A DNA stretch of 37,152 bases from a virus. Location: positions 1-37,152 of IMG/VR virus record IMGVR_UViG_3300042566_000349; one strand, 5' to 3'. The notes below the pieces were generated by a model that was given only the letters and a program-made list of their open reading frames with translations, did no database searches and was not told the origin of the DNA. A program made the translations under genes and the position numbers. Below are positions 1,800 to 6,587 of this stretch, in pieces. The first letter of the stretch is position 1, and every line of letters begins with the position of its first letter.

Positions 1800-2061
1800 C
1801 GACCATTACCTTTCCGTCATTAACATTGTCAATTACATAAACGATACAACCCTGATTACGCAGCTTCTCATGCTCCCGTAGCTGCCCCGGTGTTGGCTTA
1901 GCACCTTCCCGCTTAAACTCGATGAAGATGACATGACCATATGGCGTAATGAATATCTGGTCAGGGACGAACATATGTCCTGGCGATGTCCACTTCCGGG
2001 TCAGCCAGCCTTTCGATTCGGCGTAGCGTTTGACCGACTTCTCAATATCTTTTTCTAACAT
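1780..2061 (-). CDS. VRR-NUC domain nuclease
   Basis: 93 residues, essentially one VRR-NUC (PD-(D/E)XK) domain. The visible core is VPDQIF (residues 32-37), IFIEFKREGAKPTPGQ (about residues 45-60, with the E-x-K pair) and a following histidine helix. In phages this minimal form is found beside SNF2 helicases, as here, and probably acts as a Holliday-junction or flap nuclease during recombination or replication. Its ATG overlaps the polymerase stop as TAATG, indicating translational coupling. Length is typical for the stand-alone phage form. The biochemical substrate is inferred from the family. Confidence 0.85.
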   Translation of the reverse strand: MLEKDIEKSVKRYAESKGWLTRKWTSPGHMFVPDQIFITPYGHVIFIEFKREGAKPTPGQLREHEKLRNQGCIVYVIDNVNDGKVMVDAHTPG

Positions 2062-3893
2062 TACGATAACCCCAAGGTTAGTTTCTCGACTTCAGCGATG
2101 TAATAGTCATGGTTGACCGGCAGCACTGCATCCTTTAGATCGTTGCAGACTTGCACATCCCATCCCGACTCCACGCCAATCTTGCGCCACTCATTAGGCT
2201 TCTTGGCTAGTGGCGGCATCCACTTGAATAATGGCTTGCCACCCTTGGCGATGTAGTAACGGGTAATGTTCTGCACCTGCTCGTCACCCCATTGCAGGTA
2301 ACTGGAGCGGGGTACTTTGGTACGCAGCATGAAGTCCATCAGCTCAGGCCAGTTCTCCACCGTCTCACGGATAGGCGCACCATCGACTAGCACCTTCTCG
2401 GCTATCTTTGGGATCACCAGGCCACCAGCGTTCTGGTGCCAGCTGAGGTTGTACTCATAGGCACCCTTACGCTTGACCTTACCGGACTCATAGACAGCCA
2501 GATAGTTGTTGACGTCACGGATCATCATCGACTTGTAGATCGCCTCCTCCAGCTCTAAACCGGTCAGGCGCTCCCACCAATGGCGAACCTCTTGCAGATG
2601 GTGCATCTCGGTACGCGGCAGGCGCACGGTCACGCCATCCGTATTGATCTGGATCAGGCTCAGGTCTTTAATGCGGATCAGGTTCTCAGCCAGTACACAC
2701 AGCAGCAGCTGACCATTGAGCGTAATCGACATGGTGAACAGCGGATCGTAGAACACGCTGAACTTATTATTGCTGTCACCATAGACGCCATTGAGCGCCA
2801 GCTTGAGCATGGCGTTCTCGGCTGAACCTTTGGCGTAGGTCTTACGCTGCTCGTACAGGTTCTTGTAGATGTCGCAAAACGCTACCCCGAGATGCTTAGG
2901 ATAAAAGCGATTGCAAATAGCAAGGTTAGGGTAGTAAGAGCTAACGTCCAGATCAACAATAACAAATTGCTCATCCGACTCAACAACTTCTGATTCGATA
3001 GAACCGTGAATCCCACCAAGGCCAAAAACAAAGTCAAAGCCATCAACCCGGGCAACAAGGTCATTGAATACCCCTTTCGTTTCCGTAATCGTTTGATTCT
3101 TAAGCCAGTTTAACACACGGGTAAATTCTGGCTGCTCAAACTGAATCCACGGCAGGATGGCATCCTTCAGCGCCAGGGTAGGGCGGGGCGTCTGTCTAGG
3201 CGTGCGTCCCTTATTCGAGTAGTCGTAGCAGGCGACGCCTGCCTCCTCCAGTTTCATTACGAAATAGTCTTTCCCGATCTTAGTGTCGTTGTGATTCATA
3301 AAGTCACGGTTGTACTTAACCGTCAGCTCCTCGCGGAACCGGATCATGTCCAGCGTCTTGTAGTAAAACGCCTTGGTTTCCTTGACGTCGTGCTGGTTGT
3401 ACTGCTTGAGTTTCTCCACCTGCTCACGGGTCAGGATGGTGCCAACCTTAAACGGCAGATCCTCGATGTTCTGGGATCTCATGTTGAACTCCAGCACCTT
3501 CAGGCCAGTGGACCGAGCCTTATTGTCAAAGTGATGGATCTTATACAGATCGATCTGGTCAATGAACCGGTCAGATGGATTGACCTGGTGCGCCCAACGA
3601 TCCTCATTATCCTGCGATTGGATGATGGCCTGAGCCTTGTCGTACAGAATCTTGGCGCTGCTCTGACCCATGCGGATCAAGGTGTGCAGTACCGGATAAT
3701 CGAAACCGAGATTATTGAACCCGACCAGACGGGCATTGCTGTCCTTTAGATCAGTCAGGAACTTGCAGATTTCTTGGGAGTCGTTGCGCCAGTCGCTAAT
3801 CTCAAACATCCACGTCAGCGGCATCTCAGCGTGCTCTATCGCCAATGTAAACACATTGGGGTACGTCTCAATATCGAATATATAGTCACGCAT
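2061..3893 (-). CDS. Family B DNA polymerase with 3'-5' exonuclease
   Basis: 610 residues; replicates the phage genome. The N-terminal exonuclease has FDIE (residues 6-9), NNLGFD (60-65) and YNQHD (165-169), matching ExoI-III. The polymerase domain shows motif A DLDVSSYYP (314-322), motif B K364 with NGVYG (368-372) and motif C NTDGV (417-421). The catalytic Asp of motif C (D419) is kept, while the first Asp of the usual DTDS is Asn and the Ser is Gly, a divergent form. A GGIHG motif at 293-297 resembles the loop linking exonuclease and polymerase domains. The ATG at 3893, preceded by ACAGG, is preferred over an upstream in-frame TTG at 3908. No terminal-protein gene is apparent, so protein priming is unlikely. 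The compact size suggests a minimal replicative enzyme. Confidence 0.88.
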   Translation of the reverse strand: MRDYIFDIETYPNVFTLAIEHAEMPLTWMFEISDWRNDSQEICKFLTDLKDSNARLVGFNNLGFDYPVLHTLIRMGQSSAKILYDKAQAIIQSQDNEDRWAHQVNPSDRFIDQIDLYKIHHFDNKARSTGLKVLEFNMRSQNIEDLPFKVGTILTREQVEKLKQYNQHDVKETKAFYYKTLDMIRFREELTVKYNRDFMNHNDTKIGKDYFVMKLEEAGVACYDYSNKGRTPRQTPRPTLALKDAILPWIQFEQPEFTRVLNWLKNQTITETKGVFNDLVARVDGFDFVFGLGGIHGSIESEVVESDEQFVIVDLDVSSYYPNLAICNRFYPKHLGVAFCDIYKNLYEQRKTYAKGSAENAMLKLALNGVYGDSNNKFSVFYDPLFTMSITLNGQLLLCVLAENLIRIKDLSLIQINTDGVTVRLPRTEMHHLQEVRHWWERLTGLELEEAIYKSMMIRDVNNYLAVYESGKVKRKGAYEYNLSWHQNAGGLVIPKIAEKVLVDGAPIRETVENWPELMDFMLRTKVPRSSYLQWGDEQVQNITRYYIAKGGKPLFKWMPPLAKKPNEWRKIGVESGWDVQVCNDLKDAVLPVNHDYYIAEVEKLTLGLS

Positions 3894-3912
3894 TACGTTA
3901 CCTGTCAATTTT

Positions 3913-3938
3913 CTACTAATCTGGTTATAAATTAGTAG
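3913..3938. repeat. Inverted repeat between tRNA-Thr and polymerase gene
   Basis: Perfect 8-bp arms (CTACTAAT and ATTAGTAG) separated by 10 bp. It sits just downstream of the tRNA 3' end in the minus-strand transcript and just before the polymerase start. With no T-run on either side it does not look like a terminator. An RNA processing signal for tRNA 3' release, or a structure affecting polymerase translation, is possible but not shown. Confidence 0.45.
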
Positions 3939-3941
3939 GAA

Positions 3942-4016
3942 TGGTGCCCCCGGTCAGAATCGAACTGACGACCTACCGCTTACAAGGCGGTTGCTCTACC
4001 TCTGAGCTACAAGGGC
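3942..4016 (-). tRNA. tRNA-Thr (anticodon UGU)
   Basis: 75-nt cloverleaf on the minus strand. Acceptor GCCCTTG pairs with CGGGGGC (two G-U pairs). The D arm is GCTC/GAGC. The anticodon stem ACCGC/GCGGT encloses loop CTTGTAA with anticodon TGT. The T arm is GTCAG-TTCGATT-CTGAC. CCA is encoded. All arms pair, so it should be functional and read ACA codons. It is embedded in the replication operon between the ssDNA-binding and polymerase genes, so release must rely on host RNase P/RNase E-type processing. The AT-rich tailspike gene appears rich in ACA codons, a possible reason for keeping this tRNA (inference). Confidence 0.95.
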
Positions 4017-4020
4017 GGGT

Positions 4021-4078
4021 GGGGCAAAGACGTGAGGTTCCCGCCGCACGTCCTTTCTATGCAAAATAGATTAGCCCC
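4021..4078 (-). ncRNA. Structured RNA candidate, unit 2 (58 nt, GGGGC/GCCCC closed)
   Basis: In the minus-strand transcript this stretch lies directly 5' of tRNA-Thr. A 5-bp closing stem GGGGC/GCCCC encloses two hairpins: CTAT/ATAG with a 5-nt loop, and GACGTG/CACGTC with a 12-nt loop extended by AAA/TTT around a bulged G. It is followed by ACCC, like unit 1, and preceded by TTTAC, also like unit 1. No open frame fits the region. Its 5' GGGGC can pair instead with the GCCCC that ends unit 1, so the two units may switch. Function unknown. Confidence 0.45.
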
Positions 4079-4087
4079 GTAAAGGGT

Positions 4088-4164
4088 GGGGCGGCTAGTT
4101 CGCTCAAAAACTAGATAACGAGTGTAGTCCCTTTCGGTTATACATCGTTGGTCGAGGCCGCCCC
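4088..4164 (-). ncRNA. Structured RNA candidate, unit 1 (77 nt, tRNA-like outline)
   Basis: Closing stem of 7-8 perfect pairs (GGGGCGGC/GCCGCCCC) followed by ACCC. Inside are a hairpin CTAGTT/AACTAG that abuts the 3' strand of the closing stem, as a T arm would, and a longer irregular hairpin (AACGA/TCGTT, then TGTA/TACA around one bulge, then CC/GG). There is no D arm and no 7-nt anticodon or T loop, so it is not a canonical tRNA. Size (77 nt), 7-bp acceptor-like stem and unpaired ACC end are tRNA-like. It may be a decayed tRNA, a tRNA-like regulatory RNA or an operon processing element. Pairings were found by eye; no homology known to me. Confidence 0.5.
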
Positions 4165-4171
4165 GTAAAAC

Positions 4172-4816
4172 TTAACCCTGCATAAATGGTGGCAGACCCA
4201 TTGCTGGGGCAGCCGGGGCAGCGGCAGCAGGCTGACCAGCTACAGCGCCGAACAGGTTAGACGCATCAACTGCACCTTCACCAAAGGCTTGATCGTCACC
4301 AGCGAACTGAAGAGCAACCAGGTCACAGCGGACACCACGGCCATGCTTGTTATCTTGCAGCCAAGGCTTGACGGCAGCATTAACACGGCAACCACCGTAC
4401 ATCTTGCGAGTCAGTTGCTGGTAAGCCATCGTATTATTTGGGTCAATGGCCGAGCCATCAGCCTGAATAATCTGTGGCTGGGAGTCACGACCAGCAGTGA
4501 TAAACACATTGCCAGCGTAGCCGTCATACGGCTGAAAGGTCTTTTTGTTGATCTTTTCTTCACCGCGACCGTAGCAGCGTGATTTGCGATCATTTTGGAT
4601 CATCCCCATAACAGTCTGGGCGTGCTCTGCCCATTTAGTCAGTGCCAGCTCGCCATACTTAGCCATGAACTGCTGGAAGCCAGCGTGATCCTGGGGCATG
4701 ATGAACTCGCAGTTGTAGCTGATACGTTCCTTGCCATCGGCATTAACCTGACGCTGTGGTTCAGCGATGTGTGGGAAGCTAAGACGGACGTTCGATAGAA
4801 AAATTACATCTGACAT
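4172..4816 (-). CDS. DUF2815 family single-stranded DNA-binding protein
   Basis: 214 residues. The start SDVIFLSNVRLSFPHIAEP is typical of DUF2815, a phage family with an OB-fold related to T7 gp2.5-like ssDNA-binding proteins. The conserved middle carries a DGYAGNVFITA segment and GGCRVNAAVKPWLQDN. The tail is Ala/Pro-rich and ends GLPPFMQG without the acidic tip usual for SSBs. It probably coats ssDNA during replication and recombination. A strong AGGAG site precedes the ATG. Its position between the DUF2800 nuclease gene and the polymerase is the common arrangement of this replication module. Confidence 0.85.
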   Translation of the reverse strand: MSDVIFLSNVRLSFPHIAEPQRQVNADGKERISYNCEFIMPQDHAGFQQFMAKYGELALTKWAEHAQTVMGMIQNDRKSRCYGRGEEKINKKTFQPYDGYAGNVFITAGRDSQPQIIQADGSAIDPNNTMAYQQLTRKMYGGCRVNAAVKPWLQDNKHGRGVRCDLVALQFAGDDQAFGEGAVDASNLFGAVAGQPAAAAPAAPAMGLPPFMQG

Positions 4817-4836: not shown

Positions 4837-6093
4837 TTACTTTAACCAGTCCGGCAGGGAATCTGCCAAACCATTAACTGCACCGAACATCGGGGCAGCA
4901 TCCAAAATCACCGCTTGGCGATGATCGGATTCGGGAACGATTGTCAGCTTGCCTTGTGACTTCTTGATGTACTCAGTCTCAAGAGTTTTCAGTTGACGAT
5001 CGGATAATTGCTTCTTCTCACCATCTTTTTTCTCCCATGTCAGCTTCTCAGCTTTGGCTGGGGTAATCAGTTTGGTTTCAAAGATTGACGATTTGGGGAT
5101 GCCCATCTTAACCAGCTTGTCGGCCATATCTTCTTCAGACAGTGCCCAGCTGCGGGTACCACGGCCATACACTGCTTTGAGTCCGCTAATGCTGACACCA
5201 GCTTCAAAGCGGCGCAATGCCTCAGCTTCCACGGCTTCGAGTAGTTGGCGTACCAGTGGTGCCGACTCCACGATCTCGCGGATCTGTTGGTCAGATAGTT
5301 CGTTGGGGTTTTTGTCAGCGGCTTGCTGTGCTATGTCGATCGACTTAAACATACCAATGGCCTCCATTACGTTACTGGCTAGGGCATTACACGCTCCCTT
5401 TGCCTTACAGAATTTACATTGACTATCGCCAGGTACTAGCGGTGCGTCCGGTTTATCAGTGGCAGCTGCGGCCTCTGCATAGAACGGAACTTTAGCAAGC
5501 AATTCATCAGTAGTCAAGTCGTGTGACGTAATTGCCTTCATGCCACGCAGCGCCAGCTTAGGCTGGATGATGGTCATGCGTACAGTCTTGAACTTACCGA
5601 GGTGACGGGCTAACACACCTAAAGCGTACAGCTCCAGCTGCTTATTGTCTTTAACATCGACAACGCCCATGCCGTCCTTGTAGTCGATCACGTCCACATG
5701 GCTACCAGCATGGATCTGAACGTCAACGGTACCGCCCAGATCCTCACGGGCAGCAGGCATCAGCAGAGCAGGATTAACCTTACCCTCTGCCATAACAGTC
5801 GCGTTACCCAGCTCCTTAACCCGGTGCTGGATGTGCGAGTAGGCAATGCCGACACGGGTAGCGCGTTCCTTATCGACAGTAAACTCACCCTCATGGTCAG
5901 CCAGTACACGGCCAACGAACTCCAGAGGATCAGTCTTAGTCAGGATCGCCTGCTCAAGTAACGTGTGGCTATGGGTACCATCAACGGCAGCTTGACCTGT
6001 TACGTCGGGAAATTTAGCCTCTTCCCTTATGGAACCAGGGCAAAGTGCCCACCGATGTGCTTTACTCGGGCTTAATTGTGCGTGGGTGGTCAT
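4837..6093 (-). CDS. DUF2800 protein, Cas4/AddB-like PD-(D/E)XK nuclease
   Basis: 418 residues. The catalytic core is visible as H41-S-H43, GTVDV (D124), VIDYK (D137, K139) and QLELYALG (152-159). Four cysteines, C18 and the cluster CKFCKAKGAC (C226, C229, C235), match the 4Fe-4S pattern of Cas4 and AddB nucleases. Likely a 5'-3' exonuclease making ssDNA for the neighbouring DUF2815 protein. The C-terminal third is Lys-rich and lacks obvious motifs. The start is coupled to the stop of the upstream HNH gene (ATGA). Family call strong; polarity inferred. Confidence 0.85.
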   Translation of the reverse strand: MTTHAQLSPSKAHRWALCPGSIREEAKFPDVTGQAAVDGTHSHTLLEQAILTKTDPLEFVGRVLADHEGEFTVDKERATRVGIAYSHIQHRVKELGNATVMAEGKVNPALLMPAAREDLGGTVDVQIHAGSHVDVIDYKDGMGVVDVKDNKQLELYALGVLARHLGKFKTVRMTIIQPKLALRGMKAITSHDLTTDELLAKVPFYAEAAAATDKPDAPLVPGDSQCKFCKAKGACNALASNVMEAIGMFKSIDIAQQAADKNPNELSDQQIREIVESAPLVRQLLEAVEAEALRRFEAGVSISGLKAVYGRGTRSWALSEEDMADKLVKMGIPKSSIFETKLITPAKAEKLTWEKKDGEKKQLSDRQLKTLETEYIKKSQGKLTIVPESDHRQAVILDAAPMFGAVNGLADSLPDWLK

Positions 6094-6587
6094 GCCGCGT
6101 ACTCCGTATTGTGATGTGTGAATAACCGATCGCGTGCATTTTTAGCAGCATTTGCAGCTTCTTTGAGACTTTCATAACGCCCGATAAATTTTCGCACATT
6201 GTTGTGACGAATCTGTGCCATCCATTTTTGCGCTGATTTGTCCCATGTTACCCCACGATAACCTGATGTGTTATTGACATGAAGTGTTTGATTTTCACTG
6301 TTCTGTTTGTTACAAACCAGTCTCAAATTTTCAATACGATTGTCTTTTCGATCGCCATTTATGTGATCCAGTTGTTTTTTAGGCCATTCGCCGTAAACGT
6401 ACAACCAAGCCAATCGGTGCGACAAATAACATTTACGATTAATTTTCATGTGCCGATAACCATCGGGATGATCAGTACCGGCCACCGCGCCAATCGGTGC
6501 TCGCGGATTACGGGTAATTCGATTGACGAATATTCCCGTATCCGGATCATAGATCAGCAGTTCTTTAAGCTCTGCCTGAGTCAGCAT
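6090..6587 (-). CDS. HNH homing endonuclease with AP2-like DNA-binding domain
   Basis: 165 residues. HNH core SHRLAWLYVYGEWPKKQLDH followed by INGDRKDNRIENLR and NSEN (about residues 55-97). The C-terminal part, SGYRGVTWDKSAQKWMAQI with FIGRYESLKEAANA, resembles an AP2 DNA-binding domain. Closely similar in layout to the genes at 25218-25712 and 34712-35173. It is inserted between the linker protein and the DUF2800 gene: it starts 2 nt after the upstream stop, and its own stop overlaps the next start as ATGA. Probably mobile; no essential phage role expected. Confidence 0.9.
   Translation of the reverse strand: MLTQAELKELLIYDPDTGIFVNRITRNPRAPIGAVAGTDHPDGYRHMKINRKCYLSHRLAWLYVYGEWPKKQLDHINGDRKDNRIENLRLVCNKQNSENQTLHVNNTSGYRGVTWDKSAQKWMAQIRHNNVRKFIGRYESLKEAANAAKNARDRLFTHHNTEYAA

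Follow-up and report, generated by a model that had tools for sequence, protein, structure and literature searches.

The region between the single-stranded-DNA-binding protein (SSB) gene and the tRNA-Thr gene of a phage record in IMG/VR raises the question of what two tandem, structured RNAs with tRNA-like outlines are, and how they come to lie there. The window, meaning the whole stretch of DNA analysed, is this 37-kb record (37,152 nt), in which the SSB, tRNA-Thr and polymerase genes and both RNA units are all coded on the minus strand. In that strand's direction the order is SSB stop codon, GTTTTAC, unit 1, ACCC, TTTAC, unit 2, ACCC and tRNA-Thr. The SSB gene (4172..4816) encodes a gp2.5-like protein of 214 aa (PHROG phrog_112, E 3.7e-29), and its 3' UTR is the site of both units. 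The 5' spacer GTTTTAC (4165..4171) puts 7 nt between the stop codon and unit 1; unit 2 lies in tandem and tRNA-Thr comes next. The tRNA gene (anticodon TGT; 3942..4016; ARAGORN; Rfam RF00005, 71.7 bits) starts at 4016, the first base after the ACCC of unit 2, and that tail (4017..4020) is the entire spacer between them. A simple hairpin, CTACTAAT...ATTAGTAG (3913..3938), recognised from its sequence and minimum free energy (MFE) fold, lies between tRNA-Thr and the next gene downstream, which encodes a phage DNA polymerase (2061..3908; phrog_1252, E 9.4e-193). This polymerase is 73.8% identical to a protein annotated as DNA polymerase family B in phage DSL-LC05, the closest isolate.

Both units were examined by MFE folding and shuffle tests. 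Unit 1 (77 nt; 4088..4164) is closed by an 8-bp stem, GGGGCGGC/GCCGCCCC (4157-4164/4088-4095), which encloses an inner hairpin (4117-4149) and a T-arm-like hairpin (4096-4113). It is followed by the ACCC tail (4084..4087), in which a tRNA-like discriminator A precedes CC, comparable to the RCC of the class E units described below, and then by the TTTAC linker to unit 2 (4079..4083); comparable linkers, CCCACCCTTTTCGGGG and CCCACCTTAAACGGGG, join tandem units in other loci. Unit 2 (58 nt; 4021..4078) is closed by a 5-bp stem, GGGGC/GCCCC (4074-4078/4021-4025), around an inner hairpin (4056-4070) and a T-arm-like hairpin (4026-4055). In each unit the 3' of the two enclosed hairpins meets the closing stem without a spacer, as the T-arm does on an acceptor stem. 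The acceptor-like stem and T-arm-like hairpin that the original prediction gave for unit 1 are supported, and both units have them.

The folding of both units and their tandem arrangement are confirmed. Unit 1 has an MFE of -29.2 kcal/mol (z -3.6), a value reached by 1 of 500 shuffles, and unit 2 one of -24.0 kcal/mol (z -3.5), reached by 3 of 500; the pair probabilities of both closing stems are 0.90-0.97. When both strands of the window were scanned, unit 1 was the sole helix of at least 8 Watson-Crick pairs that spans 37-91 nt and is followed by ACC. Such an 8-bp helix with ACC arises in 16 of 5000 dinucleotide shuffles, and two non-overlapping helix-plus-ACC units arise in 11 of 5000, which agrees with the earlier description of two tandem, tRNA-sized structured units. 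The same description had proposed built-in alternative folds, in which the GCCCC of unit 1 pairs with the GGGGC of unit 2. This pairing is possible, with a probability of 0.027, and because the competing fold makes up only about 3% of the ensemble, a conformational switch is not supported.

The units match no Rfam family, in line with the earlier remark that no RNA of this form was known: across the locus ARAGORN and Rfam found tRNA-Thr alone, and Rfam covariance models, at gathering and at relaxed thresholds, matched no unit in the window or in sister loci, those for GOLLD and ROOL included. An intrinsic terminator was considered and rejected, since ACCC rather than a U-run stands behind both units and a terminator scan made no call there.

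The interiors of the two units are orphans. Both were searched for with blastn and nhmmer in the fetched loci (3.5 Mb) and, as exact and as degenerate patterns, in IMG/VR, and unit 1 was compared with phage records by blastn; any matches were at chance level. A 10-mer, GGCGGGAACC, common to unit 2 and other loci was set aside, its 9 matches in about 7 Mb being at chance level. The interiors are missing even in the nearest relatives: L001 and L002, whose SSBs are 94-95% identical to that of the window, show nothing but a plain hairpin, and the unit of L003 is a different one, sharing TCGAYCAAC with unit 1 and nothing beyond. The window's pair was therefore acquired or replaced recently. Because their interiors have no detectable homologue, the window units yield no covariation of their own; their structure is supported by thermodynamics and context, and their assignment below to a family is by frame, tail, position and tandem layout, not by homology.

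What occupies this position in other phages proved more informative. Relatives were fetched through their SSB and polymerase genes, and 150 SSB-polymerase gaps, 108 of them different, were read; this sample is dominated by metagenomic contigs. Nearly all of the gaps contain a GC-rich structure. In about a quarter it is a plain hairpin, often GGGGGC-UUCG-GCCCCC. More than half contain a larger unit, for the most part with GGGG../..CCCC as its closing stem and ACCT or ACCC behind it. Where the closing stem of a larger unit was identified correctly, RCC stands behind it in nearly every case, as against 1 of 25 plain UUCG-type hairpins of the same gap; the ACC is therefore a property of the unit rather than of the operon. 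Within this common frame lie at least 15 unrelated structured classes of interior, to which we have given our own labels (C, D, E, F, G, H, J, K, M, N, O, P and others). The window units share the frame, a G-C-headed closing stem (4-13 bp in the family, here 8 and 5) followed by RCC, and the position, which is either no more than about 20 nt downstream of the stop codon of an SSB gene or beside another unit or a tRNA in a tandem array. Tandem units with window-like linkers recur elsewhere, and arrays of units with tRNAs occur in the window, in L021 and in two cultured phages, CASP1 (beside tRNA-Met and tRNA-Arg) and IFTN6 (beside tRNA-Arg). Decay of the region had been named as an outcome that would overturn the original prediction. 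The interiors are indeed absent in relatives, yet these keep other structured interiors in the same frame, and the window locus is not decaying.

The classes are exchanged rather than inherited with the surrounding genes. On a polymerase tree of 70 phages we counted 35 class changes, which rules out vertical inheritance of a single RNA, and near-identical polymerases are accompanied by different classes. Close relatives, too, differ in class (D in L115 and K in L128; S in L007 and H in L047). In DSL-LC05 the SSB-polymerase gap is occupied by a unit of class C. Payloads of classes H and G were seen both on the class E platform and directly on a closing stem, and the E and P cores and the D, C and H payloads are conserved in sequence across unrelated phages. 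The possible meaning of the ACC tail, the recurring position in the SSB 3' UTR and this exchange of cassettes go beyond what was originally predicted, and are the main finding.

Several further features of the gap were observed. HNH endonuclease genes lie near the locus in the window, at 1290-1799 and 6090-6587, both on the minus strand, and HNH-like ORFs lie inside the gap of L052, L054, L059, L074 and L076; a homing endonuclease might drive the exchange. Bodies of tRNAs, some degenerate, are found inside E units or alone in the gap (L020-L023, L028, L137), a possible route from tRNA to payload. The gaps of L035/L036 and L049 contain longer structured-looking inserts of about 120-210 nt in the same slot. 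In the Alcaligenes phage CASP1 (L404, 1701-2583), an 880-nt unannotated stretch upstream of tRNA-Met/tRNA-Arg contains several structured units (G class and E-like).

Two sister classes supply the covariation that the window units themselves lack. A scan for its core pattern placed class E (L285-L402, alignment A4) in no fewer than 120 contigs of IMG/VR, from unrelated phages, and class P (L164-L283, alignment A3) likewise in at least 120. Since exact patterns served to retrieve both cores, their internal invariance is partly by construction; these patterns included neither the closing stems nor the tails. Neither the E core, GAAAGCGGATGCTG...GCAGCGAGTA, nor the P core, CCAGCnnTCGAGGATG...TTTTCTGG, was present in either window unit on sequence comparison, and neither class has a family in Rfam 15. 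For the compensatory changes proposed as a check on the two RNAs the answer is divided: the window's interiors, absent from relatives, show none of their own, and the closing stems of E and P covary strongly.

A class E RNA consists of a closing stem, a GAAA/GAGUA element that by our own reading of the sequence resembles loop E, and a variable payload, from a few nt up to 70 nt long, which is sometimes a tRNA body (L021, L028; degenerate in L020, L022 and L023). In the closing stem 97% of cells are paired, with compensatory changes in 5 of 5 pairs. Of the 110 non-redundant units, 101 open their stem with a G-C pair and 95 have RCC behind it, in 92 of them as ACC; among the 33 units with a stem other than GGGG, RCC is present in 21. 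ACCU is the commonest tail and ACCA is rare (8 of 110). Identical payloads recur on different stems. In many units an A/U-rich flank like that of unit 1 in the window, often ending in TTTAC or TTAAC, precedes the first G of the stem, and the units begin about 5-8 nt, and the cores mostly 9-14 nt, behind the upstream stop codon. The gene before an E unit encodes an SSB much more often than chance would give: an acidic ..PF tip, typical of SSBs, ends 17 of the 69 proteins encoded upstream of E, and among the remaining ORFs of these loci the figure is 5 of 1887 (Fisher p 6e-22). As named by PHROGs and Pfam, these upstream genes include at least five SSB families, among them phrog_112, 7364, 18154, 44 and 6015, and PF10991 and PF00436. 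Other contexts occur as well; some E units, for example, follow a TATA box that resembles a promoter, within extended noncoding sequence.

A TATAAT-like box stands just upstream of an E unit in L324 and L312, which raises the possibility of long, modular noncoding RNAs driven by a promoter of their own. A further unit, 'V' (TGAGGATTG...CAGTCCTCAGTCGTG), is chained with E and P units in L213 (11800-12200), in L324 (6780-6910) and near 4618 on the minus strand of L217. In sister loci Rfam recognised tRNAs only, plus C4 and Burkholderiales-2 elsewhere in the Bordetella phage IFTN6; the C4 antisense RNA and its targets lie at 4547-4748 (L403), and the E unit of IFTN6 is elsewhere in that genome.

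Class P is an RNA of about 85 nt that forms an H-type pseudoknot, in which AAGCCAG pairs with CUGGCUU within the loop of a second helix. On 44 diverse sequences 91.5% of the cells of this structure are paired, compared with at most 54% when it is slid by 1-3 columns, and 17 pairs have compensatory changes, among them every pair of the inner helix (six) and of the closing stem (nine). Behind about 40% of P units a U-rich run takes the place of RCC; the tail is thus not universal in the family. The genes before most P units were not recognised as SSB by PHROGs or Pfam and often belong to an uncharacterised family. Scanning genome contigs for the P pattern returned a single MAG contig, labelled Enhydrobacter (L284). 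GGA is found in several cores, for which a CsrA-type GGA sponge was considered.

We infer the processing and function of these RNAs as follows. Each cassette would comprise a G-C-headed stem, a single-stranded ACC and an interchangeable folded interior, placed in the SSB 3' UTR. Stem and ACC would imitate the acceptor end of a tRNA, with G1-C72, discriminator A73, C74 and C75, and RNase P would cut the SSB-polymerase transcript before the first G of each unit, aided by pairing of the ACC with the GGU of RNase P RNA. The CC end would withstand 3' trimming, CC ends being generally resistant to RNase T. In the window, the 5' maturation cut of tRNA-Thr by RNase P alone would leave unit 2 ending exactly in ACCC. 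The predicted products are an SSB mRNA with a defined 3' end, split from the polymerase and the tRNA, and small stable RNAs whose interiors would do class-specific work in trans.

Release or trimming by the tRNA-maturation route is favoured by the constant end, a G-C-headed stem with ACC, and by the precedents for RCC. RNase P RNA of E. coli cleaves a non-tRNA pseudoknot only when it has a 3' RCC trailer, and RCC pairs with the GGU of bacterial RNase P RNA (PMC12710915); the window units carry this substrate feature, a stem with a 3' RCC next to the position of G1-C72. A passage of the same paper describes the T2/T4 gene 32 (SSB) mRNA as containing a pseudoknot followed by ACCA and claims it as an RNase P substrate (PMC12710915). 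Natural phage substrates of RNase P include C4 RNA and phi80 M3 RNA (PMC12710915, PMC11143913). That conserved payloads jump between phages suggests work in trans, and the SSB position also allows a purely cis role. We give about even odds to the reading in which frame and position place the window units in a large family of phage RNAs built as exchangeable cassettes, released by RNase P and working in trans.

A cis role would make the units a form of 3'-UTR armour, in which stable folds keep 3'-5' exonucleases off the abundant SSB mRNA and lessen read-through to the polymerase gene, the ACC overhang stalls trimming, and no discrete trans-acting RNA is made. Such a role would account for the turnover of interiors, because any stable fold serves, and for the position right behind the SSB stop codon; a plain GGGGGC-UUCG-GCCCCC hairpin fills the slot in other phages, and some P units end in a U-run and may act as terminators. 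However, the interiors (E and P cores; D, C and H payloads) are conserved across unrelated phages far more than a simple block would require, the same payload can move from one stem to another, and units also occur in tRNA-side arrays and behind promoter-like sequences, not behind SSB alone. We regard armour as rather unlikely. Chance or decayed sequence without function, such as pseudo-tRNAs, would be consistent with the absence of homologues for the interiors and with the degenerate tRNA bodies inside E units of L020, L022 and L023, but it is hardly credible given the shuffle statistics, the intact 8-bp and 5-bp stems, and the strict frame and ACC tail common to covarying sister units.

The remaining alternatives assign the RNAs a partner. 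The SSB or the DNA polymerase could bind its own unit as a translational operator and regulate SSB or polymerase synthesis, as T4 gp32 does, which would fit the placement between the two genes; one class (P) is an H-type pseudoknot, and the T-even gene 32 mRNA has an autoregulatory pseudoknot, as a passage of PMC12710915 states. Nevertheless, closely related SSB/polymerase pairs are accompanied by RNA classes that have nothing in common, and a single class is found with unrelated SSB families; with classes and SSB families uncoupled, a specific protein-RNA pair does not fit, and the units lie 3' of SSB and not in its leader, which leaves operators very improbable. Alternatively, the SSB slot may express decoys or other trans-acting RNAs that titrate host RNases, tRNA-attacking toxins or RNA-sensing defences, with the interior setting the target. 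In favour of this are the rapid turnover of units at one fixed slot, their tRNA-like ends, the tRNA-like bodies found next to them or embedded in them, and a neighbour gene expected to be highly expressed; the sequence names no defence system, and we consider decoys unlikely, although they are compatible with cassettes released by RNase P.

Non-tRNA phage RNAs cut by RNase P are known from C4 of P1/P7 and phi80 M3, and claimed for T4 gene 32, and the cassettes, for which cleavage is predicted, differ from them in lying 3' of SSB, in having exchangeable interiors and in being spread over unrelated phages. The gene 32 transcript is likewise an SSB mRNA, and it has a pseudoknot with ACCA behind it; C4 had no Rfam match in the window. 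GOLLD and ROOL are also structured RNAs of phages and prophages near tRNA islands, with unknown function, and GOLLD can carry tRNAs (PMC12286853). They are single large cage-forming RNAs, GOLLD often exceeding 800 nt, whereas the units described here are self-closed and about 30-110 nt long. With tRNAs the window units share an acceptor-like G-C-headed stem, a stacked 3' hairpin, an ACC end and a tandem arrangement with a real tRNA, but they have no D arm, anticodon arm, T-loop consensus or match to the tRNA model, and in the family the terminal A of CCA is usually not encoded. Like intrinsic terminators and intergenic hairpins they place a GC-rich stem behind a gene, and a plain hairpin takes the slot in many relatives; unlike terminators, the window units have no U-run, and sister classes have elaborate conserved interiors.

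Our search of open-access full texts found no paper on these RNAs, and a large set of phage RNAs with a closing stem, an ACC tail and swapped interiors has apparently gone undescribed. We tentatively propose, at somewhat less than even odds, a widespread modular system of phage small RNAs, in which a constant acceptor-like frame, sometimes with a loop-E-like platform, would carry exchangeable payloads, be expressed from the SSB 3' UTR and be released by the host's tRNA processing, the payloads moving independently of the surrounding genes. With at least two covarying classes outside Rfam 15, each in 120 or more IMG/VR contigs, lying directly behind SSB genes, among the best-defined places in phage genomes, and being exchanged as cassettes, phage annotation would have a large blind spot here. 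That SSB transcripts are processed by RNase P is a directly testable hypothesis for which T4 gene 32 provides a precedent, and the cassettes constitute a natural set of small RNA folds to screen for effects on RNases, defence systems or replication.
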